A DNA stretch of 64,000 nucleotides from Aquisalinus flavus (GTDB lineage Bacteria > Pseudomonadota > Alphaproteobacteria > Caulobacterales > Parvularculaceae). The notes beneath the pieces are model-generated. The model was given only the letters and a program-made list of their open reading frames with translations, was not told where the DNA came from and did not search any database. Positions within the stretch are counted from its first letter, which is position 1, and the number at the start of each line of letters is the position of its first letter. The DNA is taken from assembly GCF_022559625.1 (NCBI RefSeq), contig NZ_CP042288.1, positions 2,366,155-2,430,154 on the forward strand, given 5' to 3'. The position numbers and the translations under genes are program-made. This document shows positions 1 to 27,166 of the stretch, piece after piece.

Positions 1-516
1 ATATTGCTGCCACAGGTATAGCCCGGTGATGATCGCGACGGTCAGCATCTTCACGCCGCTCTTGACGAACTCGCCGATCCCGTCCGGGCCGTATTTCTGC
101 TTGGCATTGTCGATCGGATTGATCTTGCTCATCTTCGGCTTGATCTTGTCCGTCGCGAAAACGATCGATTGCTGCGCCACGAGGGAGGAGATGATGAACG
201 CCGCCGGAATGACGAAGACCGGCGCCAGCAGCGACCCGAAGCTGATCATCAGATCGGCAAACAGCTTCTTGTCGGGATTGAACAGCAATTCATAGGCATA
301 GGCATCGGGCATGGCGAGGAAGCTCGTCAGCCGGCTCGCCATCGCCGTCGCCGCACTGCCGCCGACCAGCATGATCATGACCGCGAATCCGGCATAGAGC
401 ATGAAGGTGTTCGCCTCGCGCGACTGCGGTACGTCGCCCTTCTTGCGCGCCTCGGCAATCTTGTGCGCGGTGGCGTCGAATGACTTTTCCTGGCCTTCGT
501 CCTGTCCCTCGGCCAC
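1..516 (-). CDS. flhB: Flagellar export gate protein FlhB (N-terminal part, cut by window edge)
   Basis: Inner-membrane switch protein of the flagellar type III export apparatus. I read it directly from the minus strand, starting at a GTG at 516 with three bases between it and the fliR stop. The 172 visible codons show the typical soluble N-terminus with AHKIAEARKKGDVPQSRE, followed by two or three hydrophobic segments and the conserved SKINPIDNAKQKYGPDG stretch. The C-terminal cytoplasmic domain with the NPTH self-cleavage site lies beyond position 1. It follows flhA and fliR in the same direction, as in many alphaproteobacterial export operons. The family call is firm; the GTG start is inferred from the position of the family motif. 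Confidence 0.9.
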   Translation of the reverse strand, partial: MAEGQDEGQEKSFDATAHKIAEARKKGDVPQSREANTFMLYAGFAVMIMLVGGSAATAMASRLTSFLAMPDAYAYELLFNPDKKLFADLMISFGSLLAPVFVIPAAFIISSLVAQQSIVFATDKIKPKMSKINPIDNAKQKYGPDGIGEFVKSGVKMLTVAIITGLYLWQQY

Positions 517-8067: not shown

Positions 8068-9327
8068 TTAACTACGGAACAAGGATAGCAGCTGCTGCGG
8101 CGAGGCATTGGCGATCGACAGCGCCTGGACGCCCAGCTGCTGCTGGACCTGAAGCGACTGGAGCCGGGCCGAGGCCTCTTCCATATCCGTATCCGTCAGG
8201 GCAGAGATGCCGGCTTTCATCGCATCCATTAGCCTGCCAACGAATTCCATCTGGTTGGATATCCGCTTTTCGGCGGAACCGAATTCAGCCGCGACATCCA
8301 CGGTCGCCTGGATCGCGCGCTCGATGGTGCCGAGGGCGGCGGCGGCGCCTTCAGAGGTCGTCACATTGATACTGGCGGCGTCATAGACGGCCCCCTTGGC
8401 GACGTTGTCGTCAGAGGTCACAGTATCGAGGCGCACGGCGATCGTGTCGGTGCCGTCGGTGACGCCCGAGGTGAAGCTCAGCGTATCGCCATCGGCGGTG
8501 ACGTTCAGGACATCCGTATCGAGGGAGTTCGCGGCAACGTAATCCGCATAGGCAGCGGCGAGGCCCGCGGCGACATCGGCAGCCGTGTCACCATCGCGGG
8601 CGACATAGGCGATATTGGCGGCGCCCGTTGCCGTTCCTGCCGTCGTGTAACTGGCCGGAACGAAAGCGGAGGAGTCTGCATCCGTGCCCGTCAGCCCGAT
8701 AGAATAGGCGACCCCTGCAGTCGGCGTGCCGACGGCAATATCCTGCGATTGCGTGGCGTTGAGTGTCGCGGCGGACCCGCCGGTACCGGCGGCATAGACG
8801 CCGGCCGCAGTATCGACGACCTGCGCCGCCATCATGTCCTGGCGGTCGACGCGGATGCTGGATGTGGCAAGCCCGGAGGCGGACCGGTCGAGCGAGGCCA
8901 GGATGTTCACCGTGTCACCGCCCTTGAGCAGGTTGACGCCATTGAACTGTGCCGCGTCGATGATCGAGGTGATCTGGTCATTCAGGCGGTCGATATCCGT
9001 CTGCAGCTTTTCGCGGTCCTGGCCTTCTTCCTGGGAGGCGATGATCAGGCCCTTCATGTCTTCGAGAAGGCCTTCGATCTGCTCTGCACCGGCGCGGGCG
9101 ACCGCGACCGTCGATGCGCCGAGATTGAGTGATTCGTTGATCTTGGCGAACCCGCCGACATCGGATTCCATCACCTTGGAGATCGCCCAGATCGCGGCAT
9201 TGTCCTTGGCGGAGTCGACCTTCTTGCCCGTTGCAATCTGCGACTGGACCTCGCTGAGATTCTTGCTGATCCCCTTCAGCGTATCCAGCGCGACAAGCGC
9301 GCTTTTATTGAAGTTGATACTGGACAT
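8068..9327 (-). CDS. Flagellin 4 (divergent paralogue, nearest flaF)
   Basis: Filament subunit, 419 residues when started at the ATG at 9327. That start gives SSINFNKSALVALDTLKG and is preceded by GAGGGAG about 10 bases upstream. A longer frame from 9369 adds 14 residues without family support. The N-terminal D0/D1 region and C-terminal helices are well conserved with the three neighbours. The C-terminus is ASPQQLLSLFRS instead of GSSQTILSLFRG, so this copy is diverged at its filament-core end. The central region around residues 170-310 has the shared GVAYSIGLTGTDADSS block. Export and filament assembly are inferred from the family. Confidence 0.94.
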   Translation of the reverse strand: MSSINFNKSALVALDTLKGISKNLSEVQSQIATGKKVDSAKDNAAIWAISKVMESDVGGFAKINESLNLGASTVAVARAGAEQIEGLLEDMKGLIIASQEEGQDREKLQTDIDRLNDQITSIIDAAQFNGVNLLKGGDTVNILASLDRSASGLATSSIRVDRQDMMAAQVVDTAAGVYAAGTGGSAATLNATQSQDIAVGTPTAGVAYSIGLTGTDADSSAFVPASYTTAGTATGAANIAYVARDGDTAADVAAGLAAAYADYVAANSLDTDVLNVTADGDTLSFTSGVTDGTDTIAVRLDTVTSDDNVAKGAVYDAASINVTTSEGAAAALGTIERAIQATVDVAAEFGSAEKRISNQMEFVGRLMDAMKAGISALTDTDMEEASARLQSLQVQQQLGVQALSIANASPQQLLSLFRS

Positions 9328-9342
9328 AGGATTGGCTCCCTC

Positions 9343-9350
9343 ATGGTTAA
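9343..9350. promoter_or_regulatory. CtrA-like half-site upstream of flagellin 4
   Basis: ATGGTTAA lies 16 bases upstream of the flagellin 4 start. The rest of the gap to the next gene (9351-9543) has several CTTAA words and a small hairpin CCCGG-CGGAA-CCGGG at 9491-9505. The half-site is very close to the start codon, so it could repress rather than activate, or it could be chance. Confidence 0.25.
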
Positions 9351-9543
9351 GTGCCACTTTGAGACACATTTCTTAACGCATTTGGTAAACACAACCTTAA
9401 GAAACGCAAAAAAGCCTTAAGGCCCGTCAAGAATTCTTAACGGACCGGAAGGCCTGGCAGGGCTCGCGGCCTGCCTGCGCTCATGTTTTACCCGGCGGAA
9501 CCGGGCTCAGGGACGGGCTGAAATCGCCCGGCCCTTAAGGGGT

Positions 9544-10797
9544 CTAGCCGCGGAAGAGCGACAGGATCGTCTGCGAAGAACCATTGGCGATCGACAGCGC
9601 CTGCACGCCCAGCTGCTGCTGGACCTGAAGCGACTGGAGACGGGCCGAGGCCTCTTCCATATTGGTATCGGTCAGGGCCGAGATGCCGGCCTTCATGGAG
9701 TCCATCAGCTTGCCGACAAACTCGATCTGGTTATCGATGCGCTTTTCGGCAGAGCCGAACTCGGCCGCAGCATTTACCGTTGCCTGGATGGCAGTTTCGA
9801 TCGTGGCAAGAGCGGCGGTCGCACCGGAAACAGTGGTCACATCAATCGCATCGACATCGGCAAGGGTCCCCCCCGCGACGTTGTTGTCGCTGACGATCGT
9901 ATCGATATGCACGTCGATCGTGTCGGTCCCGTCCGTGACCGTCGATGTCGCGATGATGTCATCGCCCGATGCGGTGAAGTTCAGCACATTGGTGTCGAGA
10001 CCGTTGTCCACTGCATACTGGGCATAGGCAGCCGCGAGGGCAGCAGCAATATCAGCCTTCGTATCGGTGCTCTTTGCGACATAGGAAAGCGGTTCTGAGG
10101 CAGCGGCGCTGCTGCCACTCTGATAGGTTGCCTCCGTAAACGAGGAATTGTCGATATCGATCCCGTGGAACCCGAGCGAATAGGCAACGCCTGCGACCGG
10201 ATCGTCGAGCGTCAGTGTGCGCGTCTGCGTCGCATCGAGGTAAAGAACGGTGTCACCAAAGGCGAATGTGCCGCTGGTATCGACATATTGCGTAGCGGTA
10301 CTGAGGTCCTGGCGATTGACCGAGATATTGGATGTACCGACACCCGTCGAGCTTCTGTCGAGAGAGGACAGCACATTCATCGCAGCCCCGTCTTTCAACA
10401 AGTTGACACCATTGAACTGCGCCGCGTTGGTTACCGAGGTAATCTGGTCCTTCAAACGGTCGATATCGGTCTGGATCTTGTCCTGGTCCTGGCCTTCTTC
10501 CTGGGAAGAAATGATCAGCCCCTTCATGTCCTCGAGCAGGCCCTCGATCTGTTCGGCACCGGCGCGGGCAACGGCGATGGTCGCGGAACCGAGGTTCAGG
10601 GATTCACTGATCTTTGAGAAACCGCCCACATCCGATTCCATGACCTTGGAGATCGCCCAGATTGCGGCGTTGTCCTTGGCTGAACCGACAGATTTCCCCG
10701 TCGAGATCTGAGCCTGTATGGTACCGAGATTCTTGTTGATACCCTTCAGGGTATCGAGCGCGACAAGCGCACTTTGGTTGAAGTTGATGCTGGACAT
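9544..10797 (-). CDS. Flagellin 3
   Basis: Filament subunit of 417 residues, starting SSINFNQSALVALDTLKG and ending GSSQTILSLFRG. The last 171 bases (9544-9714), including the stop, are identical to those of flagellin 2 (10940-11110). The central domain is the most different of the four, with GVAYSLGFHGIDIDNSSF in place of the GLTGTDADSS block. The gene therefore looks like a mosaic, with recent sequence sharing at the end and an old, diverged middle. A GGGAG ribosome site precedes the ATG at 10797. Confidence 0.95.
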   Translation of the reverse strand: MSSINFNQSALVALDTLKGINKNLGTIQAQISTGKSVGSAKDNAAIWAISKVMESDVGGFSKISESLNLGSATIAVARAGAEQIEGLLEDMKGLIISSQEEGQDQDKIQTDIDRLKDQITSVTNAAQFNGVNLLKDGAAMNVLSSLDRSSTGVGTSNISVNRQDLSTATQYVDTSGTFAFGDTVLYLDATQTRTLTLDDPVAGVAYSLGFHGIDIDNSSFTEATYQSGSSAAASEPLSYVAKSTDTKADIAAALAAAYAQYAVDNGLDTNVLNFTASGDDIIATSTVTDGTDTIDVHIDTIVSDNNVAGGTLADVDAIDVTTVSGATAALATIETAIQATVNAAAEFGSAEKRIDNQIEFVGKLMDSMKAGISALTDTNMEEASARLQSLQVQQQLGVQALSIANGSSQTILSLFRG

Positions 10798-10877
10798 GAC
10801 AGGTCTCCCGTCTGTTTTGATTCTTCTTTTGTCGAAGGATCGGCGGAAGCTGTTCCTCAGCCGGCCGTTACGGTTGA

Positions 10878-10885
10878 TTAACCAT
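10878..10885. promoter_or_regulatory. CtrA-like half-site upstream of flagellin 3
   Basis: TTAACCAT on the plus strand (ATGGTTAA on the gene strand), about 80 bases upstream of the flagellin 3 ATG and just past the terminator of flagellin 2. It is the same octamer found in the flgB/fliI and fliM/motB promoter regions. Assignment to CtrA is inference. Confidence 0.35.
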
Positions 10886-10900
10886 AAGCAACGGCGCCGA

Positions 10901-10929
10901 AAAAAGGCGGACCCGGAAGGTCCGCCTTT
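10901..10929 (-). terminator. Rho-independent terminator of flagellin 2
   Basis: On the minus strand this reads as an 11-base stem, AAAGGCGGACC with GGTCCGCCTTT, around a short loop and followed by further T residues. It lies 11 bases beyond the flagellin 2 stop. It separates flagellin 2 from flagellin 3, so each flagellin is probably its own transcription unit. Confidence 0.85.
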
Positions 10930-10939
10930 CGGTTAGTCC

Positions 10940-12202
10940 CTAGCCGCGGAAGAGCGACAGGATCGTCTGCGAAGAACCATTGGCGATCGACAGCGCCTGC
11001 ACGCCCAGCTGCTGCTGGACCTGAAGCGACTGGAGACGGGCCGAGGCCTCTTCCATATTGGTATCGGTCAGGGCCGAGATGCCGGCCTTCATGGAGTCCA
11101 TCAGCTTGCCAACGAATTCCATCTGGTTGTCGATGCGCTTCTCGGCGGAACCGAATTCGGCGGCGGCATTGACACTTGCCTGGATGGCGGTCTCGATCGT
11201 GTCGAGCGCCGCAGCGGCACCTTCGGCCGTTGTGACGTCGATGGCATTGACATCGCTCAGAGCGCCCTTGGCGACGTTATCGTCAGATGTCACCGTGTCG
11301 AGACGGACGGCGATCGTGTCCGTACCATCGGTCGACCCGGAGGTGAAGGTCAGGTCGGCGCCGCTGGCGGAGACGTTCAGCACGTCCGTGTCGAGCGCGT
11401 TGTCGGCAGCATAGGTCGCATAGGCAGCGGCCAGGCCTGCGGCAACGTCAGAGGCGGTGTCGCCATCTTTTGCGACATAGGCGATATTGGCGGCGCCTGT
11501 GGCCGAACCGGCAGTCGTGTAATCGGCCGGGACGAAGGCCGACGAGTCAGCGTCCGTGCCTGTCAGGCCGATCGAATAGGCAACGCCTGCGGTCGGCGAG
11601 CCGACGGTCAGCGTACGGGACTGGGTGGCATCGAGTGTTGCCGTGTCCGTACCTGTACCGGCAGCATAGGTGCCGGCTGTGTCGACGGACTGGGCATTGG
11701 TGGTGAAGTCCTGACGCGTGATCGAGATCGTCGAGGTGGATACGCCCGTCGATGACCGGTCAAGCGATGACAGGACGGACAGACCTTCGTTGCCGCCTTT
11801 GAGCAGGTTGACGCCATTGAACTGGGCAGCGTTGACGATGGAAGTCATCTGCTCGTTCAGGCGGTCGATATCGGTCTGGATCTTGTCCTGGTCCTGGCCT
11901 TCTTCCTGGGAAGAAATGATCAGCCCCTTCATGTCCTCGAGAAGGCCTTCGATCTGCTCAGCGCCAGCGCGGGCGACAGCAACAGAGGAAGAGCCGAGAT
12001 TCAGGGATTCATTGATCTTGGCGAAACCGCCGACGTCGGATTCCATGACCTTGGAGATCGCCCAGATTGCGGCGTTGTCCTTGGCGGAACCAACGGACTT
12101 GCCGGTGGAGATTTGCGATTGAATATTACCGAGGCTCTTGTTGATTCCTTTCAGGGTATCGAGAGCGACGAGCGAGCTTTGATTGAAGTTGATACTGGAC
12201 AT
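10940..12202 (-). CDS. Flagellin 2
   Basis: Filament subunit of 420 residues with the shared N-terminus SSINFNQSSLVALDTLKG and C-terminus GSSQTILSLFRG. Its central domain is close to those of flagellins 1 and 4 (SIGLTGTDADSSAFVPADY and YVAKDGDTASDVAAGLAAAY). Its 3' end is identical to flagellin 3 over 171 bases. AAGGAA precedes the ATG at 12202. It is a separate transcription unit with its own terminator. Confidence 0.95.
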   Translation of the reverse strand: MSSINFNQSSLVALDTLKGINKSLGNIQSQISTGKSVGSAKDNAAIWAISKVMESDVGGFAKINESLNLGSSSVAVARAGAEQIEGLLEDMKGLIISSQEEGQDQDKIQTDIDRLNEQMTSIVNAAQFNGVNLLKGGNEGLSVLSSLDRSSTGVSTSTISITRQDFTTNAQSVDTAGTYAAGTGTDTATLDATQSRTLTVGSPTAGVAYSIGLTGTDADSSAFVPADYTTAGSATGAANIAYVAKDGDTASDVAAGLAAAYATYAADNALDTDVLNVSASGADLTFTSGSTDGTDTIAVRLDTVTSDDNVAKGALSDVNAIDVTTAEGAAAALDTIETAIQASVNAAAEFGSAEKRIDNQMEFVGKLMDSMKAGISALTDTNMEEASARLQSLQVQQQLGVQALSIANGSSQTILSLFRG

Positions 12203-12241
12203 GATACAAATTCCTTAATTCAGATAGATTTCGAAAGAACT

Positions 12242-12263
12242 GGCGGCCCCTTTCGGGGCCGCC
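12242..12263 (-). terminator. Strong hairpin after flagellin 1, possible terminator
   Basis: GGCGGCCCC and GGGGCCGCC form a perfect nine-base stem with a TTTC loop, nine bases past the flagellin 1 stop. The tract after it on the minus strand (AGTTCTTTCG) has only a weak T run. It may act as an mRNA-stabilising 3' hairpin or as an imperfect terminator. Confidence 0.55.
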
Positions 12264-12272
12264 ACTATTGGA

Positions 12273-13529
12273 TTAGCCGCGGAAGAGCGACAGGATGGTC
12301 TGCGAGGAGCCGTTGGCGATCGACAGCGCCTGCACGCCCAGCTGTTGCTGGACCTGAAGCGACTGAAGACGGGCCGAGGCCTCTTCCATGTTGGTATCGG
12401 TCAGAGCCGAGATACCGGCTTTCATGGCATCCATCAGCTTGCCAACGAATTCCATCTGGTTGTCGATACGCTTCTCGGCGGAACCGAATTCAGCACCCGC
12501 ATTGACGGTACCCTGAATGGCGGTTTCGATCGTTGCGAGAGCGGCAGCCGCCCCTTCGGTCGTGGTGACGTCGATTGCGGCAACATTAGTCAGGACACCG
12601 GCAGCGACGTTGTCGTCAGACGTTACCGTGTCGAGACGAACGGCGATCGTGTCGGTACCATCGGTAGCACCCGACGTGAAGTCGAGGTCGGCGCCATCGG
12701 CGGTGACGTTCAGGACAGACGTGTCGAGCGAGTTGTCTGCGGCGTAAGCTGCAAAGGCAGCAGCAAGGCCGGCAGCAACGTCAGCAGCTGTATCACCGTC
12801 GCGGGCGACATAGGCAATGCTGGCAGCACCGGTCGCCGTTCCGGCGGTTGTGTAATCGGCCGGCGTGAAGGCAGAGGCATCAGCGTCCGTACCCGTCAGG
12901 CCAATAGAGTAGGCAACACCGGCAGTCGGCGTGCCGACCGTGATGCTGGCAGTCTGGGTTGCGTTCAGCGTTGCAGCCGAGCCACCGGTACCGGCAGCAT
13001 AGGTGCCGGCGGTATCGACGGATTGCGTGGCTTTCAGGTCCTGGCGGCTGACAGAGATCGTCGAGGTGGCAACGCCGGTGGACGAACGGTCAAGCGAGGA
13101 CAGAACGGACAGCGTGTCCTGGCCTTTGAGCAGGTTGACGCCGTTGAACTGGGCAGCGTCGATGATCGAGCCGATCTGGTCGTTCAGGCGGTCGATATCC
13201 GTCTGGATCTTGTCCTGGTCCTGACCTTCTTCCTGCGAGGAAATGACAAGGCCCTTCATGTCTTGCAGAAGGCCTTCGATCTGTTCGGCACCGGCGCGGG
13301 CGACGGCGACCGTGGAAGAGCCGAGGTTCAGGGATTCGCTGATCTTGGAGAACCCGCCGACGTCGGATTCCATGACTTTGGAGATCGCCCAGATGGCGGC
13401 GTTATCCTTGGCCGAACCAACGGCTTTACCGGTCGAGATTTGCGACTGGATGGTGCCGAGATTCTTGTTGATCCCCTTAAGGGTGTCGAGGGCGACGAGC
13501 GCACTCTGGTTGAAATTGATGCTGGACAT
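12273..13529 (-). CDS. Flagellin 1 (first of the tandem array)
   Basis: Filament subunit of 418 residues. The N-terminus SSINFNQSALVALDTLKG and C-terminus GSSQTILSLFRG match flagellins 2 and 3 at the protein level, but the nucleotide sequence at the 3' end differs from theirs at several positions. The central domain carries SIGLTGTDADASAFTPADY and YVARDGDTAADVAAGLAAAF. The leader upstream of the ATG contains a strong hairpin beside the ribosome site, the kind of structure on which FlbT could act. Confidence 0.95.
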   Translation of the reverse strand: MSSINFNQSALVALDTLKGINKNLGTIQSQISTGKAVGSAKDNAAIWAISKVMESDVGGFSKISESLNLGSSTVAVARAGAEQIEGLLQDMKGLVISSQEEGQDQDKIQTDIDRLNDQIGSIIDAAQFNGVNLLKGQDTLSVLSSLDRSSTGVATSTISVSRQDLKATQSVDTAGTYAAGTGGSAATLNATQTASITVGTPTAGVAYSIGLTGTDADASAFTPADYTTAGTATGAASIAYVARDGDTAADVAAGLAAAFAAYAADNSLDTSVLNVTADGADLDFTSGATDGTDTIAVRLDTVTSDDNVAAGVLTNVAAIDVTTTEGAAAALATIETAIQGTVNAGAEFGSAEKRIDNQMEFVGKLMDAMKAGISALTDTNMEEASARLQSLQVQQQLGVQALSIANGSSQTILSLFRG

Positions 13530-17606: not shown

Positions 17607-18161
17607 TTACTGATCCTGTCTGGCAAGATCCAGAATGAGGACGTCGCGGACACCTTTTGCCTGCACCGTCTGCACGGCAGTCAGCAGCCGCATGCGAATT
17701 TCGGCATAGTTGGACGGATCCGTCATCCGTCGGGCAAACCGGCCCTCGTTTGACAGCGCGATAAGCTCCGTCATGATGACGTCGCGCAGCTTCGGGTCCA
17801 TCGCATAAAGGCTCTCGCCCAGGTTCGGATCGATCTCCAGATTGAGGTCGAGAATGACCAGGGACTGGACATTGCTATCGCTGACGACCGGCACGATGAA
17901 CTGGCGGGAGAATTTGTAATAGGCCGTCGAGCCGGTATTCGCCGGATTGCCGCCATGCGCATCTTTCTTTGACGATTTCTCTTGCGCCCCGGCGTTTTCC
18001 GCGCCCGCCGGTCCCGCATTTTCCCCCGGCGCTGCGGCTGTTGCAGCCGGCGCGGCATTGCCGAAGAAGCGCTTGTCACCGGGCTTCAGCGCATCGGCGG
18101 CGATCGCCCCGCCGATCACGAAAATGACCATGATGAAGCCGCCAACGAGATTCTTGATCAT
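17607..18161 (-). CDS. fliL: Flagellar basal-body-associated protein FliL
   Basis: Stator-associated inner-membrane protein. The 184-residue product has one N-terminal membrane anchor (VGGFIMVIFVIGGAIA), then an Ala/Gly/Lys linker at about residues 35-75. The periplasmic FliL domain follows, with KFSRQFIVPVVSDSNVQSLV and the C-terminal FT-like helix. It follows flgH with an 11-base gap at the end of the minus-strand flgG-flgA-flgH-fliL operon. Confidence 0.9.
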   Translation of the reverse strand: MIKNLVGGFIMVIFVIGGAIAADALKPGDKRFFGNAAPAATAAAPGENAGPAGAENAGAQEKSSKKDAHGGNPANTGSTAYYKFSRQFIVPVVSDSNVQSLVILDLNLEIDPNLGESLYAMDPKLRDVIMTELIALSNEGRFARRMTDPSNYAEIRMRLLTAVQTVQAKGVRDVLILDLARQDQ

Positions 18162-20218: not shown

Positions 20219-20956
20219 TTAGCCCTGTCTCATCGTCCTTGCGACGTCGCTGACGCGCTGGTCTTCCTGGTCGAGAATTTTCTGGTTCATTTCGTAATTG
20301 CGCTGCACCTCGATCAGGCGCGATATTTCCATGATCGGCTGTACGTTCGACGCTTCGAGATAGCCCTGCATGATACGCACTTCACTCTCGACCGGGTCGA
20401 ACCCGTCGAGAGGACGCCACAAATTCGACCCCTCCCGTGCGATCATGCCGGGCGGTGTATCGACCACGACAATGCGCCCGACCGGGTTACCGTCGGTACT
20501 GATGGTTCCATCCTGTGCGATGACGATGTCAGTGACATCGATCGGAATCTCGAATGGCTCACCCTCTGCGCTCAAGAGCGGCATGCCTTCCGGATTGACG
20601 ATCATGCGCTGGTTGTTGAGCATGAACACGCCGGCTCTTGTAAGGCGCTCGCCGTTCAGCCCCTCGACGACGAAGTATCCGTCGCCGTCAATGGCCAGAT
20701 CGAGAACGCCGCCTGTCTGGTCGAGAAAGCCCTGCTCATTGGAATAGAACTGCGTGCCGACACTGCCTTCGGACAGGTCGTTGTCGATACTGCCTTCTTT
20801 GTCGGCGGCCGACAGCCGATCGACGGCCTCGGAGAACAGGAACCCGCTTTTCTTGTAGCCGGTCGTGTTGACATTGGCGATGTTATTGGCGATCGACGAC
20901 ATCTCCCGCAGCAGGGACGATTGCCGCGATACGGTCATATAGGCTGCGCTATCCAT
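20219..20956 (-). CDS. flgF: Flagellar proximal rod protein FlgF
   Basis: Rod subunit, 245 residues. It has the N-terminal MSSIANNIANVNTTGYKKSG motif, the central DGDGYFVVEGLNGERLTRAG and a C-terminal SRLIEVQRNYEMNQKILDQE helix. The ATG overlaps the last eight bases of the upstream 617-residue protein gene, so it is probably translated in a coupled way from the motA operon. Confidence 0.95.
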   Translation of the reverse strand: MDSAAYMTVSRQSSLLREMSSIANNIANVNTTGYKKSGFLFSEAVDRLSAADKEGSIDNDLSEGSVGTQFYSNEQGFLDQTGGVLDLAIDGDGYFVVEGLNGERLTRAGVFMLNNQRMIVNPEGMPLLSAEGEPFEIPIDVTDIVIAQDGTISTDGNPVGRIVVVDTPPGMIAREGSNLWRPLDGFDPVESEVRIMQGYLEASNVQPIMEISRLIEVQRNYEMNQKILDQEDQRVSDVARTMRQG

Positions 20957-22802
20957 TGGTCAGCACCTCCCTCAAAATCAATATATCTTCCGGGTGCGTT
21001 GCAAGCAGCTTCTCCAGCGCCTGCAGGCTTGCCTGGGTCGGCAATTGGGCGAGTGCACCGCTCTGACCCGACATGTAGCTGGCAAGTGCGTGACGCGCTT
21101 GCGTCTGGCTGTTCGCATCCTCCACCAGCATCGCGGCATAGGCATCGCGCGCCTGCGCCCACTGGCCGGACGCCCAGGCAATGCGGGCCTGTCCTTCAAG
21201 ATTGCGCATTGTACCCGGACCCCGCCGCAATACGTCGAGGGCTTCCCGTTCCCGGCCAAGCCGGTGCAGCGCCGTTGCAGCAACCGCCATCATCACGGGG
21301 TCTTCGCTGTTGCGCGTCAGTGACAGCGCCTCGTCATAGCGACGATCGGCAACATAGGCCCGTGCCAGCAATTTGCGCTCCTCGTCGCCCAGCGTCTCGA
21401 AAGGCAATTGCTGCATCAGGGAGATCGCCTGTTCCGGCAAGCCGAGATCGAGGGCCGCCCGGGCTGCCCCAATCGTCAGCACCGCCTCCCTGTCGATCCC
21501 GTCGAAAAAGGGCCGATGGGCAATGTAACCGTTGAGCGCGGCAAACCGTGTCGTCGCACTGGTGCGCGACAGCGCCGTCTCGAACAGTCCTGCAAGCGTC
21601 GTCTTCATTGTGTCGCGGTCGGCGATGGTCGGATACTGATATTGCGCGGCGATTTCCACCGCACGCGAATACTTGCCGGTTTCAGCAGCGAGGCGCACTT
21701 CCATGAACGCTTCAGGGAAGCTCTGAGGGGCACCGTTGGACCGCACGGCGACATTCTCGAGGTCGCGGTAATACCCCGGATAATGCTCGCCTTCCTGCTG
21801 CGGTTGCAGGTCGCTCAGCATCAGGATCGCCTGCGCCTGAAGCGGGCCCTCCTGCTGGGCGAACCGCTCTACCGTGTTCAGCGCGACATCCACATCGACG
21901 CCGTTATGGGCATTGATCAGCGCGCGGAGATAAATCACCTGCGTCGTCCCTGGCAGGGTTTCCTCGGTGGCGATATCATACAGCTTTTCGGCGAGGATCC
22001 ACTGGCCGTTCTCTGCGGCGGTAATGCCGAGGCGGGTGGCAAAATCGACACGCAGATGCGGCGGCAATTGTTTCAGCTCATTGGCGACAGACGCGGCCAG
22101 GAAAACCGCCGTCGAAGGCTGGAATTCGACGAGGGCGACGGCGCGCCACAGCCGGGCCGGACCGGAACAGGCCGCATCGACCGATTTCAGGACGTTGCCA
22201 TCGCTGATGCGCCCGGCAACCGTTTCGCCCATGTAAAGAACTGTCCGTGCCCGCTCATCCGTGGCGAAAGGCCTGACAAGCGACATCGCCTCTTCGGCAA
22301 AACCGAGGGCGAGATAGTGTTTTGCCAGCCTGATGGAGGATTCCGCGTCCGGCGCCGCTGCGGAACCGGCGATCGCGATCTGCATGCGCGAGGCTTCCTC
22401 CCAGGAATAGACCCGCTCGCGGAAGGCAAAGAGATCATTATCCTGGCAGGTGGCGCTGATCAGCTCGGCCGGCACCTCGTCGTTGGTCGTATAGCCGGTC
22501 TCCTGCAGGATTGCGCCGATATCCGCATAGCCGTCTTCGTCCGTGGCGGAAATGATGGCGGCGGGGGAGTTCGCGGCCGCAGGCTGCTGACCGGACTGTT
22601 CCGGCCCTGCAGATTGCTCGTCCTCACGCAGGGATACATAGCCCTCTTCGAGCGCGTCCTGCAGGATACGCTCGAGCGCATCTTCGGTACGCGACAGGCT
22701 GCTGCCGGCCTCGCTGTCATCCGCTTCCTGCGCCAGAGCCCCGGCGGTCGGGCCGAGGCTGAGGGCAGTCGAAAACAGTAGCGATGCGAAAATCCGCGTC
22801 AT
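20949..22802 (-). CDS. Periplasmic helical-repeat protein of the motA-flgF operon, function unknown
   Basis: A 617-residue protein I do not recognise with certainty. It has a clear signal peptide (LSLGPTAGALAQ then EADDSEAG) and an acidic, low-complexity linker to about residue 80. A long alpha-helical, Ala/Leu-rich body follows that looks like degenerate tetratricopeptide-type repeats: LAKHYLALGFAEEAMSLV, GITAAENGQWILAEKLYDIA, AATALHRLGREREALDVLRR and ARIAWASGQWAQARDAYAAM. The ATG overlaps the motA stop by four bases, and its stop overlaps the flgF start by eight. It should therefore be made with the stator protein and a rod protein. A role like that of the periplasmic MotC of rhizobia is possible, but I cannot show homology. 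Confidence 0.75.
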   Translation of the reverse strand: MTRIFASLLFSTALSLGPTAGALAQEADDSEAGSSLSRTEDALERILQDALEEGYVSLREDEQSAGPEQSGQQPAAANSPAAIISATDEDGYADIGAILQETGYTTNDEVPAELISATCQDNDLFAFRERVYSWEEASRMQIAIAGSAAAPDAESSIRLAKHYLALGFAEEAMSLVRPFATDERARTVLYMGETVAGRISDGNVLKSVDAACSGPARLWRAVALVEFQPSTAVFLAASVANELKQLPPHLRVDFATRLGITAAENGQWILAEKLYDIATEETLPGTTQVIYLRALINAHNGVDVDVALNTVERFAQQEGPLQAQAILMLSDLQPQQEGEHYPGYYRDLENVAVRSNGAPQSFPEAFMEVRLAAETGKYSRAVEIAAQYQYPTIADRDTMKTTLAGLFETALSRTSATTRFAALNGYIAHRPFFDGIDREAVLTIGAARAALDLGLPEQAISLMQQLPFETLGDEERKLLARAYVADRRYDEALSLTRNSEDPVMMAVAATALHRLGREREALDVLRRGPGTMRNLEGQARIAWASGQWAQARDAYAAMLVEDANSQTQARHALASYMSGQSGALAQLPTQASLQALEKLLATHPEDILILREVLTNG

Positions 22803-23668
22803 GCAGCCGCCTTCTTGGACTCTTTGAGGGCCTCGTCGATCTCGACAAAGCTGGGACGTACCCTTTTTGGAGCGTTTCGGCGGGCAACCTCAATACAGAT
22901 ATTGGCCGGGTGCTGGTGCAGCGAGGCGACCAGCACTTCGCGAATCAGCGAATAGAAGCTGTGCTCTTCCTCGCGCACATGTTTCACATAGGCCGCAAAC
23001 GGACCAACGATGCCATAGGCCAGAAACACGCCGAGGAAGGTACCGACGAGGGCACCGCCGATCATCTGACCGAGCACTTCAGGCGGCTTGTCGATGGAGG
23101 CCATGGTCTTGATGACGCCGAGAACGGCGGCGACGATGCCAAGTGCCGGCAATGCATCGGCCATGTTCTGGAGCGCGTGGGCGCCGTGCAGCGCCTCCTC
23201 TTCCATGGTCTCGAGCTGCTTTTCCAGCAGCTCCTCGACCTGGTAGACATTGTCGAAATTCATGATCATCGAGCGGATCGTGTCGCAGATCAGCTCAACG
23301 ACGTAATGATCCTTCTGAATCTTGGGGTATTTCCGGAAGATCGCGGATTCCTGCGGCGCCTCGATATGGGCCTCGACATCGACCGGACTCTGGCGCAGCA
23401 CGTTGACAAGATCGTGCATCAGGCAAAGCAGGTCGCGGTAATCGTTCTTCTTCCACTTCGGCCCTTTGAACACGGCCATTATATCGCTGCCGACATGCTT
23501 GATCGTGGAAAAGGAATTGCCGGCGATAAACGCCCCCATCGCCGCCCCGCCGATCATCATCATCTCGTAAGGCAGAGAATGCAGGATAATACCAAGCTTG
23601 CCGCCGGCGAGCATATACCCGCCGAACACCATGACCACAGTGATAAAAAGACCCAGCAGCGCGTTCAT
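22799..23668 (-). CDS. motA: Flagellar motor stator protein MotA
   Basis: Proton-channel subunit of the stator, 289 residues, the normal length for the alphaproteobacterial type. It has four membrane segments, the N-terminal LGLFITVVMVFGGYMLAGG and the cytoplasmic loop with charged residues. The two C-terminal helices carry ADALPALGIVAAVLGVIKTM and GGALVGTFLGVFLAYGIVGP. motB is not adjacent: it lies beyond fliM on the opposite strand. The upstream region (23669-23793) has GTTTAC-AAAGT-GTAAAC at 23692-23708 and several TTAAC words. Confidence 0.96.
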   Translation of the reverse strand: MNALLGLFITVVMVFGGYMLAGGKLGIILHSLPYEMMMIGGAAMGAFIAGNSFSTIKHVGSDIMAVFKGPKWKKNDYRDLLCLMHDLVNVLRQSPVDVEAHIEAPQESAIFRKYPKIQKDHYVVELICDTIRSMIMNFDNVYQVEELLEKQLETMEEEALHGAHALQNMADALPALGIVAAVLGVIKTMASIDKPPEVLGQMIGGALVGTFLGVFLAYGIVGPFAAYVKHVREEEHSFYSLIREVLVASLHQHPANICIEVARRNAPKRVRPSFVEIDEALKESKKAAA

Positions 23669-23793: not shown

Positions 23794-24729
23794 TCACGAC
23801 GCGTCGGCGAAATCGGCAAAGAACTCTTCCGACGGATCGCTCATCAGCTTCACCGCCTTGAACTGTTTCATGACGCCCAGCGCCGCGGTCGCGACCGGCA
23901 GGTGCCCGTGGCCGCCCCAGGCCGTGAGGCAGAGCTCGTTCAGGCTGACACCCGGCAGCGGAATGACCTGGCCGACTTCCAGGCGCGCGCATTCGGCAAC
24001 GGTCATCGGGCAGCGCTCCAGCACGGCGCGAAGCTGGACGCGCGCAGACATGGCAGCGCTCAGCATATGCGGCGGCCACGGATCTTCCGGATCATCGACG
24101 GATTTCGAGGGCGCGTTGGCGAGCAGTGTCGAGAGCTTCTCGATCGGCTGGAACGGCATCAGGAATGTCAGCGGCGCGGTCTTGTCGAGGCCGATAGTCA
24201 GATCGAAGGTCAGCGCCAGCAGCGGCGATTTCTCATCGTCGATGGAAATGCCGGAAAGCTTGGTCGTGCCATTGCGGTAGGACGCGCCGGTGAAGGGGCT
24301 CGCCTTCTCAAGGCCATCGCAGGACTGCCTGAAGCCATCGAACAGCGCGGTCATGACCGGTTGCAGGAGCAGCACGTCCAGCATACCCGGCTCATGGGTT
24401 TGCGCTTCGTCGCCGGCGAGGCTGTCATCGCCGGTCTTGCGGCCGAGGATGATGGCGCAAAGCGCCCGCGACGCATGGCCGATACAGGCGGCCGGCACCT
24501 GTTTTGACGCCATCAGGAAGACTGCCTGAGCCCCCTCATTGGCCGCGCGATATTCCTCATACGTCACGCGTCTGGAGGAAATCGACTTCACCATGACCGC
24601 GCCGATTTCCTCTTCCTCGAGGCGGCGGCAGACCAGGCGCGCAAAACCATCCCACAGGGGCTGCAACCCCTTGGTCTCGTCTGTGACAGCCGGCCGTGCC
24701 GTCAGTTTCTGGCGCAGGATGGAACCCAT
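23794..24729 (-). CDS. fliM: FliM-like flagellar motor switch protein (divergent)
   Basis: The 311-residue product fits a FliM-type protein by length, context and overall plan. A middle domain (about residues 30-215) is followed by a C-terminal surface-presentation (SpoA) domain, with RAVLERCPMTVAECARLEVG and QVIPLPG. The N-terminal LSQ-EIDALL-type CheY-binding motif of canonical FliM is not visible. The start reads GSILRQKLTARPAVTDETKG instead. It lies between motA and the divergent motB. It could alternatively be a FliM/FliN-like paralogue, with the main switch genes elsewhere. Confidence 0.75.
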   Translation of the reverse strand: MGSILRQKLTARPAVTDETKGLQPLWDGFARLVCRRLEEEEIGAVMVKSISSRRVTYEEYRAANEGAQAVFLMASKQVPAACIGHASRALCAIILGRKTGDDSLAGDEAQTHEPGMLDVLLLQPVMTALFDGFRQSCDGLEKASPFTGASYRNGTTKLSGISIDDEKSPLLALTFDLTIGLDKTAPLTFLMPFQPIEKLSTLLANAPSKSVDDPEDPWPPHMLSAAMSARVQLRAVLERCPMTVAECARLEVGQVIPLPGVSLNELCLTAWGGHGHLPVATAALGVMKQFKAVKLMSDPSEEFFADFADAS

Positions 24730-25864: not shown

Positions 25865-27166
25865 ATGAGTATATCTTCTTCCCTCAATGCGGGGGTAATG
25901 GGCCTTGCGGCCAATGCCTCGCGCCTTGCCTCCATCTCAGACAACATCGCCAACTCCGCAACGATCGGCTACAAGCAGAGCGAGGTCGATTTCTCAGCCA
26001 TGGTCCTCAACCAGGGCCAGACCGGCTACAGCGCCGGTGGTGTCAGTTCGCGGTCCTACAAGAATGTCGACGCGGAAGGCGCCCTGATCAACACGGGCAA
26101 CTCCACCGACATCGCCGTCGACGGCCGCGGCATGCTGCCGGTGACCGACAGCAATGGCGTCACCGCCTCGGCCTCGGCCCGCACGCTGATGCTGACGCCG
26201 ACCGGCTCCTTCACCCCGAACGACCAGGGCTTCATGTCGACGCTGAGCGGCCTCTACCTGATGGGCTGGCCGGCAGACGCCAGCGGCAACATCCCGTCCG
26301 TCAGCCGTAACTCCGCCGTCGGGCTGCAGCCGGTAAACGTCGCCGCCAACCAGTTCGTCGCCTCACCGACGACCAACATCAATCTCGGCGTCAACCTGCC
26401 GTCCTCAGCAACCGAAGCCGGCGCCGCAGGGTCCCCCTTCGACCTGCCGGTCGAATATTTCAACAGCCTCGGTTCCTCGGAAACGCTGACGCTCAGCTTC
26501 TCGCCGACCGTGCCGGGCGCCGGTGCCAGCAATGCCTGGACCGTTTCCGTCAACGACAGCGCCAATCCCGGTGCCCCGGTTGCCTCCTTCACCATCGACT
26601 TCAACACCGGCCTTACCAATGGCGGTACTGTCGGTACGGTGACCGGTGGTGCCGGCGCGGCCTACGACGCAGCCACTGGCGAGATCACCATCAACGCCGC
26701 ACACGGACCGGTCAGCCTCTATGTCGGTACCGCCGGCAGCCGCGATGGCCTGACCCAGCTCGATGCAGCCTTCTCGCCGACAAGCGTGACCAAGAACGGC
26801 TCGCCGATAAGCGAGCTGCAGTCGATCGAGATCGACGACAAGGGCATGCTGGAAGCCGTCTATGAAAGCGGCCTGCGGCGTACCCTCTACCAGATCCCCG
26901 TCGCCGATGTGCCGAACATGAACGGACTCAAATCACAGGGTGATCAGGCCTACTCCCTGTCCCGCGACTCCGGTGAAGTCTACTTCTGGGATTCCGGTAC
27001 CGGCGCCGTCGGCACCACGCAGGGCTTCACCCTGATGGAATCGACGACCGATATCGCCGCCGAACTGACCGATCTGATCGAGACCCAGCGGGCCTACTCG
27101 ACCAACGCCAAGATCGTGCAGACTGTTGACGAGATGCTGCAGGAAACCACCAACCTGAAACGGTAA
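25865..27166 (+). CDS. flgE: Flagellar hook protein FlgE
   Basis: Hook subunit, 433 residues. The N-terminus has SISDNIANSATIGYKQSEVD, the flagellar rod/hook motif. The centre is Gly/Ser/Thr-rich, and the C-terminal helix is LTDLIETQRAYSTNAKIVQT. The size is in the normal range and clearly larger than FlgF or FlgG, which supports FlgE. The upstream gap holds GTTAACCAC and CTTAACG words near 25815 and 25834. It leads the flgE-flgK-flgL-flgI run. Confidence 0.93.
   Translation: MSISSSLNAGVMGLAANASRLASISDNIANSATIGYKQSEVDFSAMVLNQGQTGYSAGGVSSRSYKNVDAEGALINTGNSTDIAVDGRGMLPVTDSNGVTASASARTLMLTPTGSFTPNDQGFMSTLSGLYLMGWPADASGNIPSVSRNSAVGLQPVNVAANQFVASPTTNINLGVNLPSSATEAGAAGSPFDLPVEYFNSLGSSETLTLSFSPTVPGAGASNAWTVSVNDSANPGAPVASFTIDFNTGLTNGGTVGTVTGGAGAAYDAATGEITINAAHGPVSLYVGTAGSRDGLTQLDAAFSPTSVTKNGSPISELQSIEIDDKGMLEAVYESGLRRTLYQIPVADVPNMNGLKSQGDQAYSLSRDSGEVYFWDSGTGAVGTTQGFTLMESTTDIAAELTDLIETQRAYSTNAKIVQTVDEMLQETTNLKR

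Follow-up and report, generated by a model that had tools for sequence, protein, structure and literature searches.

The window, i.e., the whole 64,000-nucleotide stretch of Aquisalinus flavus DNA that was analysed, contains a block of flagellar genes in which a long reading frame is locked between motA and flgF. The features that matter here are the following:

20949..22802, minus strand: motK homologue without an AMIN domain, ATG start, 617 aa (signal peptide 1-24; acidic linker with a predicted helix at 34-52; TPR-like solenoid 119-617)
22799..23668, minus strand: motA, stator subunit (TIGR03818 MotA1, 363.9 bits, above cut-off), overlapping the motK start by 4 nt
23794..24729, minus strand: fliM-like gene ahead of motA, matching Pfam FliMN_C and, weakly, TIGR01397
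24880..25749, plus strand: motB, expected partner stator subunit (Pfam MotB_plug and OmpA), divergent from motA
20219..20956, minus strand: flgF, proximal rod, overlapping the motK stop by 8 nt and followed by flgG, flgA and flgH

On the basis of family matches, the minus-strand genes run in the order fliM-like gene, motA, motK homologue, flgF, flgG, flgA, flgH and a 184-aa gene, with motB and flgE on the opposite strand and flgI further on (in the neighbourhoods compared, the labels flgK, flgL, flgD and fliK were assigned by eye). The flgE gene, at 25865, comes directly after motB, with no motC between them. The motA stop and the start of the motK homologue share the four nucleotides ATGA. 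A first-pass annotation of this DNA had reported the 617-residue frame and its overlaps of 4 and 8 nucleotides with motA and flgF, and both were confirmed, on the minus strand. The GC content by codon position is 0.68/0.47/0.74; this pattern, together with the same slot being held in 64 of 65 relatives' loci, indicates a real gene, and a chance ORF was rejected because the frame is conserved across these 65 loci. The opposite-strand ORF at 21408-22781 (457 aa) we take to be spurious.

Other genes of the window were also considered. The fliM-like gene encodes a very divergent FliM (40 bits, with a family cut-off of 219.6). The 184-aa gene at 17607-18161 keeps its place behind flgH in relatives and looks FliL-like by eye; Pfam and NCBIfam gave no match for it. 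At 8068-13529, on the minus strand, four similar flagellin-like genes lie in tandem, one of which was confirmed as a flagellin by Pfam.

The encoded protein begins with a signal peptide, recognised by inspection, with an AxA site after residue 24. The following 94 residues (25-118) contain 22 D+E vs. 3 K+R, and the AlphaFold2 model (mean pLDDT 80.5) is all-helical, with a helical solenoid from residue 119 onwards, a region in which Pfam gives weak TPR matches between residues 442 and 606. The signal peptide, acidic linker and helical-repeat body described in the first-pass annotation were therefore all recovered. The predicted helix at 34-52 corresponds to a conserved helix of a longer, AMIN-bearing form of the protein, described below. 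The only two cysteines, C119 and C212, are invariant, as is E171, in 44 of 44 aligned homologues; since both cysteines are so conserved, a C119-C212 disulfide is plausible.

Searches against family and structure collections added little to this picture. Pfam, at E values up to 0.1, returned only TPR-type families, and NCBIfam named no family, giving only a SctY match below its cut-off. A clear hit to a non-motility family, which the first-pass annotation would have taken as evidence against a role in the motor, did not emerge from either collection beyond generic TPR. MotX, MotY and FlgT were rejected as identities, none of them giving a family match in Pfam or NCBIfam. When the model was searched with Foldseek, the top matches were eukaryotic TPR proteins and the first flagellar match, chain 9hmf_K of the Campylobacter jejuni periplasmic scaffold, ranked 31st. 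Sequence profiles compared to PDB chains gave weak matches, mostly to helical-repeat proteins and LpoA, and none to C. jejuni. The predicted solenoid is of the common TPR kind both in Foldseek and in VIA-align; the fold alone does not identify the protein and says little about its function.

A more informative result was obtained with MotK. This protein, named in 2024, is described in Cereibacter sphaeroides as a periplasmic TPR protein of 652 aa, encoded in the operon fliL2-pflI-motE-motA2-motK, which binds MotE and MotB2 and is required for Fla2 rotation; motK and motE mutants are paralysed, and both proteins bind MotB2 (PMC10954123). The annotation's term "unrecognised" consequently does not hold, while its leads, MotC and MotK, proved to be good ones. 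A MotK profile was built from 11 proteins, the window protein being excluded. All are encoded in loci with the order fliL2-pflI-motE-motA-motK, in Rhodovulum, Ruegeria, a Dinoroseobacter MAG and other genomes; one belongs to a Neomegalonema MAG and one to a MAG titled Rhodobiaceae. The comparison is therefore with Rhodobacterales relatives in the published gene order, the C. sphaeroides protein being known here by description. The window protein was scored among 2516 targets, made up of itself, 60 MotK proteins, 200 shuffled sequences and 2255 further ORFs. It matched this profile with 99.4 bits (E=2.8e-29), and the best targets not counted as MotK had E values of 0.0027 and 0.013. The same profile recovered 4 of 4 AMIN-bearing Parvularculaceae proteins (all with E values of at most 4e-44) and, at E < 1e-3, 43 of the 45 short homologues, and AMIN-bearing MotK proteins of the window's own family align with the window protein. 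The target at E=0.0027 is a 412-aa gene lying between motA and flgF in a Hellea MAG (L085, 6259-7497); it is possibly a shrunken MotK, and a MotE search of that genome gave no match.

The profile match, the place after motA and the presence of MotE in every MotK-positive genome (see below) lead us to conclude that the window gene is a MotK homologue. With MotK of C. sphaeroides and its Rhodobacterales relatives it shares the position behind motA, a Sec-type signal (by inspection in the window protein), a TPR-like body and a MotE in the same genome. It differs in that C. sphaeroides MotK has eight predicted beta strands at residues 23-119 (PMC10954123), whereas a search of the window protein with an AMIN profile gave no match up to E=10 and its AlphaFold2 model lacks, at the N-terminus, the beta domain that is a feature of canonical MotK and of the PflA/FssB spoke family. 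An AMIN-only query of the window genome likewise gave no match, although a negative in that kind of search carries no weight. Moreover, flgF follows the window motK, and motE, pflI and fliL2 are found at another locus, together beside fliF near 3,061 kb and about 670 kb from motK (FliL and FliF were assigned by family match, pflI by position). The absence of the canonical AMIN domain and the place of motE in another operon speak against the MotK reading, and because an AMIN domain and an operon shared with motE were looked for and not found, the label "canonical MotK" is withheld from this protein. The best explanation, to which we give a probability of roughly 0.8, is that it is a periplasmic TPR spoke of the E-ring/stator scaffold, of MotK lineage, that has lost the N-terminal AMIN domain.

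The distribution of the family was examined at several depths. Using the window protein as query, 21 of 61 genomes matched, the window's own included. An 18-row MotK profile matched 80 of 200 genomes of the order, and MotE matches were obtained in 187 of the 200, including all 80 MotK-positive ones; the profiles include proteins taken from genomes that were searched, and in many of the genomes that carry no MotK the MotE match is weak. The scatter through non-flagellated genomes that would have told against a motility function was gauged by MotE, and MotK was matched in 0 of the 13 genomes without a MotE match. Inspection of the neighbourhoods of the 80 positive genomes, two of them seen through presumed named equivalents (L052 and L053 for G001 and G004), revealed that 11 represent FssB-like genes or fragments. 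In three, the match comes solely from the AMIN region, and the two of these genes that were checked encode N-acetylmuramoyl-L-alanine amidases with Pfam AMIN. The other 66 comprise the window and 65 relatives' loci.

The genomic place of motK is well conserved. In the window's order motA lies directly upstream in 64 of the 65 relatives' loci, the exception (L182) starting at a contig end, and flgF or flgG lies downstream in all 65; this count leaves out 14 of the 60 order-level loci, which are FssB-like, amidase or fragment (L153-L165 and L180). In 52 of 60 named loci motA and motK overlap by 4 nt, and in the other eight by 1 nt. Among the 11 Rhodobacterales-type profile loci, one ends too soon to show the gene after motK; in the other 10, flgF comes next in one (L097) and not in nine; of these nine, six have flhA as the first or second gene after motK and three have other genes there. 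As to the check suggested in the first-pass annotation, whether homologues always sit between motA and flgF, adjacency to flgF is not general.

When named genomes were scanned with the window MotA, the nearest of the best 80 of 126 loci belonged to Aquisalinus luteolus (97% in MotA), to which the window is sister in the MotA tree; the others among these 80 came from Hyphomonas and other Hyphomonadaceae, Parvularculaceae, Rhodobacterales and a few Caulobacteraceae. Named and order-level loci overlap in genomes, and their counts were never summed. MotK homologues occur in Parvularculaceae, Hyphomonadaceae and Rhodobacterales, and the suggestion of a lineage-specific component must be abandoned; in the NCBI taxonomy Aquisalinus and Hyphomonas belong to different orders. 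In plasmids, a tblastn search with the window protein gave no match and a MotE search gave two partial ones. Three loci of Hyphomonadaceae type (L050, L062 and L073) stand in records titled Acidobacteria or Sulfopaludibacter, which are probably mislabelled or mis-binned MAGs.

The comparison of the homologues showed that two forms of MotK exist. Ten of the 17 close relatives (L028-L037) encode a longer protein, of about 717-821 aa, which begins with an extra domain of roughly 100 residues. Modelled with AlphaFold2, one AMIN-bearing protein (L082, pLDDT 75.5) shows eight strands at 26-117, the number reported for MotK; its model aligns with Escherichia coli AmiC (4bin) with Z 11.2 and rmsd 3.2 over 102 residues, the model range 18..476 giving the outer limits only. 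It is also the AMIN region of the MotK profile that picks out amidases with Pfam AMIN.

The two forms differ in their neighbourhood. In all 10 AMIN-bearing close relatives the genes upstream of motA are fliL2-pflI-motE, as published, whereas in the seven AMIN-less ones fliM precedes motA and no motE is nearby; in the window, the slot held by motE in AMIN-bearing relatives is occupied by the fliM-like gene at 23794..24729, as the neighbourhood comparison indicated. Of 46 order-level loci, scored with an AMIN profile that also scored the 15 proteins it was built from, nine are AMIN-bearing and motE-linked and 35 AMIN-less with fliM before motA and no motE nearby; the remaining two are L124 (AMIN-less and motE-linked) and L182, which starts at a contig end. 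Without exception, the named loci in which a motK was recognised, 62 in all, fall into 17 that are AMIN-bearing and motE-linked and 45 that are AMIN-less, 18 of the 80 named loci being left out for having no recognised motK above 350 aa (the FssB-like L156 was not counted). In the sequences compared, AMIN loss thus tracks the separation of motK from motE.

In the MotA tree (47 rows; a quick tree without bootstrap), 21 AMIN-less rows form one group with an SH-aLRT value of 98. The AMIN-less motK of L124 (4010-5899), still linked to motE, stands apart from this main group, among AMIN-bearing rows. The tree needs two AMIN changes and does not set their direction, gain or loss. Considering that the Rhodobacterales proteins, the longer Parvularculaceae form and Caulobacter CC_2058 (PMC10954123) all carry the domain, two independent losses, the second in the Parvularculaceae locus L124, would be the simpler reading. 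A bolder scenario would place the first loss in the ancestor of the flagellar loci of Aquisalinus and Hyphomonadaceae, as motK parted from motE, with a second loss in L124; the spoke would then work off the wall, bearing load only between MotE and MotB, and would represent a missing step from MotK/PflA to the AMIN-free MotC. This we advance tentatively, being more inclined to doubt it than to accept it. In the accessible text of the literature on MotK, CC_2058, Aquisalinus and the stators of Hyphomonas we found no AMIN-less MotK; the supplementary tables of PMC11870540, which lay outside this search, may list such genes. What is new is therefore the AMIN-less variant, the protein itself being of an already recognised kind that is not confined to one lineage.

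The link between MotK and MotE was followed in further genomes. In three other AMIN-less genomes (G005, G037 and G041) motE lies about 14 kb from motK. In Paracoccus, all nine loci (L101, L104, L105, L106, L108, L109, L110, L116 and L118) have motE and motA and no motK behind motA, which is followed by flhA. MotE was found in all nine genomes, and a whole-genome MotK search gave nothing in eight of them and one weak partial match (E=3.5e-4, in a 1054-aa frame) in the other; therefore, MotE can persist where MotK is not recognised. In Parvularcula oceani (L090, 10001-11574) motA is immediately followed by flgF, the motK slot being absent, and the genome gave no match to MotK and only a weak one to MotE, perhaps representing a natural deletion of the module. 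Taken together, Paracoccus and P. oceani indicate that the module is dispensable or replaced in some lineages.

Other periplasmic TPR proteins of flagellar motors were compared. FssB of Caulobacter crescentus (CC_2058) resembles the window protein in having a signal peptide and TPR, and its deletion paralyses the flagellum: as described, filaments are kept and do not rotate, as in a motB mutant (PMC7885107). The FssB-like genes that occur in further families of the window's order mostly encode about 960-1150 aa and are weakly similar, Caulobacter's own gene being compared by description; five of the 11 are directly beside motE and none is beside a recognised motA. The five (L153, L154, L155, L156 and L162) encode proteins of about 1070-1150 aa. 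Two of them, L156 and L162, give weak matches to the Rhodobacterales-type MotK profile (22 and 45 bits), a hint that FssB-like proteins and MotK may be related. PflA of C. jejuni is likewise a periplasmic TPR spoke of the motor scaffold and has been proposed as a homologue of MotK and MotC; unlike the window protein, it has an AMIN-like beta-sandwich and a partner, PflB (PMC11870540).

It might be argued that the window protein is mainly a stability partner of MotE rather than a load-bearing spoke, and that paralysis follows from the loss of MotE. In fact, MotE of C. sphaeroides is severely reduced without MotK, MotK being still detected without MotE (PMC10954123), and MotC of Sinorhizobium meliloti is degraded in the absence of MotE (PMC13023049). 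However, MotK-sfGFP is found at the flagellated pole in a manner dependent on MotA2 and MotB2, which suggests a structural place at the stator (PMC10954123). In the window clade, moreover, the gene is coupled to motA and not to motE, and we regard a mere stabilising role as unlikely.

In rhizobia, motC is encoded next to motB. The window gene, compared here by gene position and description, is not: it lies behind motA, and the window motB is directly followed by flgE. When rhizobial motB was searched for, none was found at E 1e-80, and at 1e-20 general MotB matches appeared that were below the family cut-off. MotC of S. meliloti is described as a periplasmic partner of MotE that has TPR and no AMIN (PMC13023049), and the lack of this domain in the window protein would fit a MotC-type rather than a MotK-lineage protein. 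The strong match to the MotK profile and the alignment with AMIN-bearing MotK of its own family make such an assignment very improbable, even if MotC, known to us by description, and MotK may be one family. Least credible of all is a service in rod assembly or in the passage of the rod through the wall, as the first-pass annotation had also considered and as the 8-nt overlap with flgF and the constant flgF or flgG downstream in the window's order could suggest, given that the next gene is not flgF in nine of the 10 Rhodobacterales-type loci with sequence beyond motK, that Pfam finds only TPR-type families and no hydrolase domain in the protein, and that the Caulobacter FssB mutant still makes filaments (PMC7885107). 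A rod-passage enzyme was rejected, Pfam finding no such domain. What stood of the first-pass interpretation is a periplasmic helical-repeat protein tied to the stator.

We return then to the MotK-lineage spoke, for which the best reading by analogy would be a stator-recruiting element that bridges MotE and MotB without wall binding of its own. MotE is placed in the E-ring, with MotK, MotC and PflA as its TPR partners (PMC13023049, PMC11870540). That the window protein lies in the periplasm, binds MotE and MotB and is needed for rotation is inferred from MotK of C. sphaeroides and FssB of Caulobacter. The window protein would be exported by Sec, its signal peptide being removed after residue 24, and its TPR solenoid would connect the periplasmic part of MotB with the MotE ring (E-ring), whereby stators would be recruited to the motor or opened there. 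A cell lacking the protein would build its flagellum but be unable to turn it. Anchoring to the wall, which has been proposed as part of MotK action (PMC10954123), would here come from the OmpA domain of MotB itself and not from the window protein.

These results extend the MotK family to Parvularculaceae and Hyphomonadaceae by sequence evidence and not just by resemblance of structure. Should the AMIN-less form prove to be a working spoke, stator anchoring by the wall-binding domain of MotK, as put forward in the literature, cannot be general. The motor of Hyphomonas neptunium was reportedly imaged by cryo-ET by Chen et al. in 2011 (cited in PMC13023049), and this organism would be a ready test case, provided that the AMIN-less form is present there.
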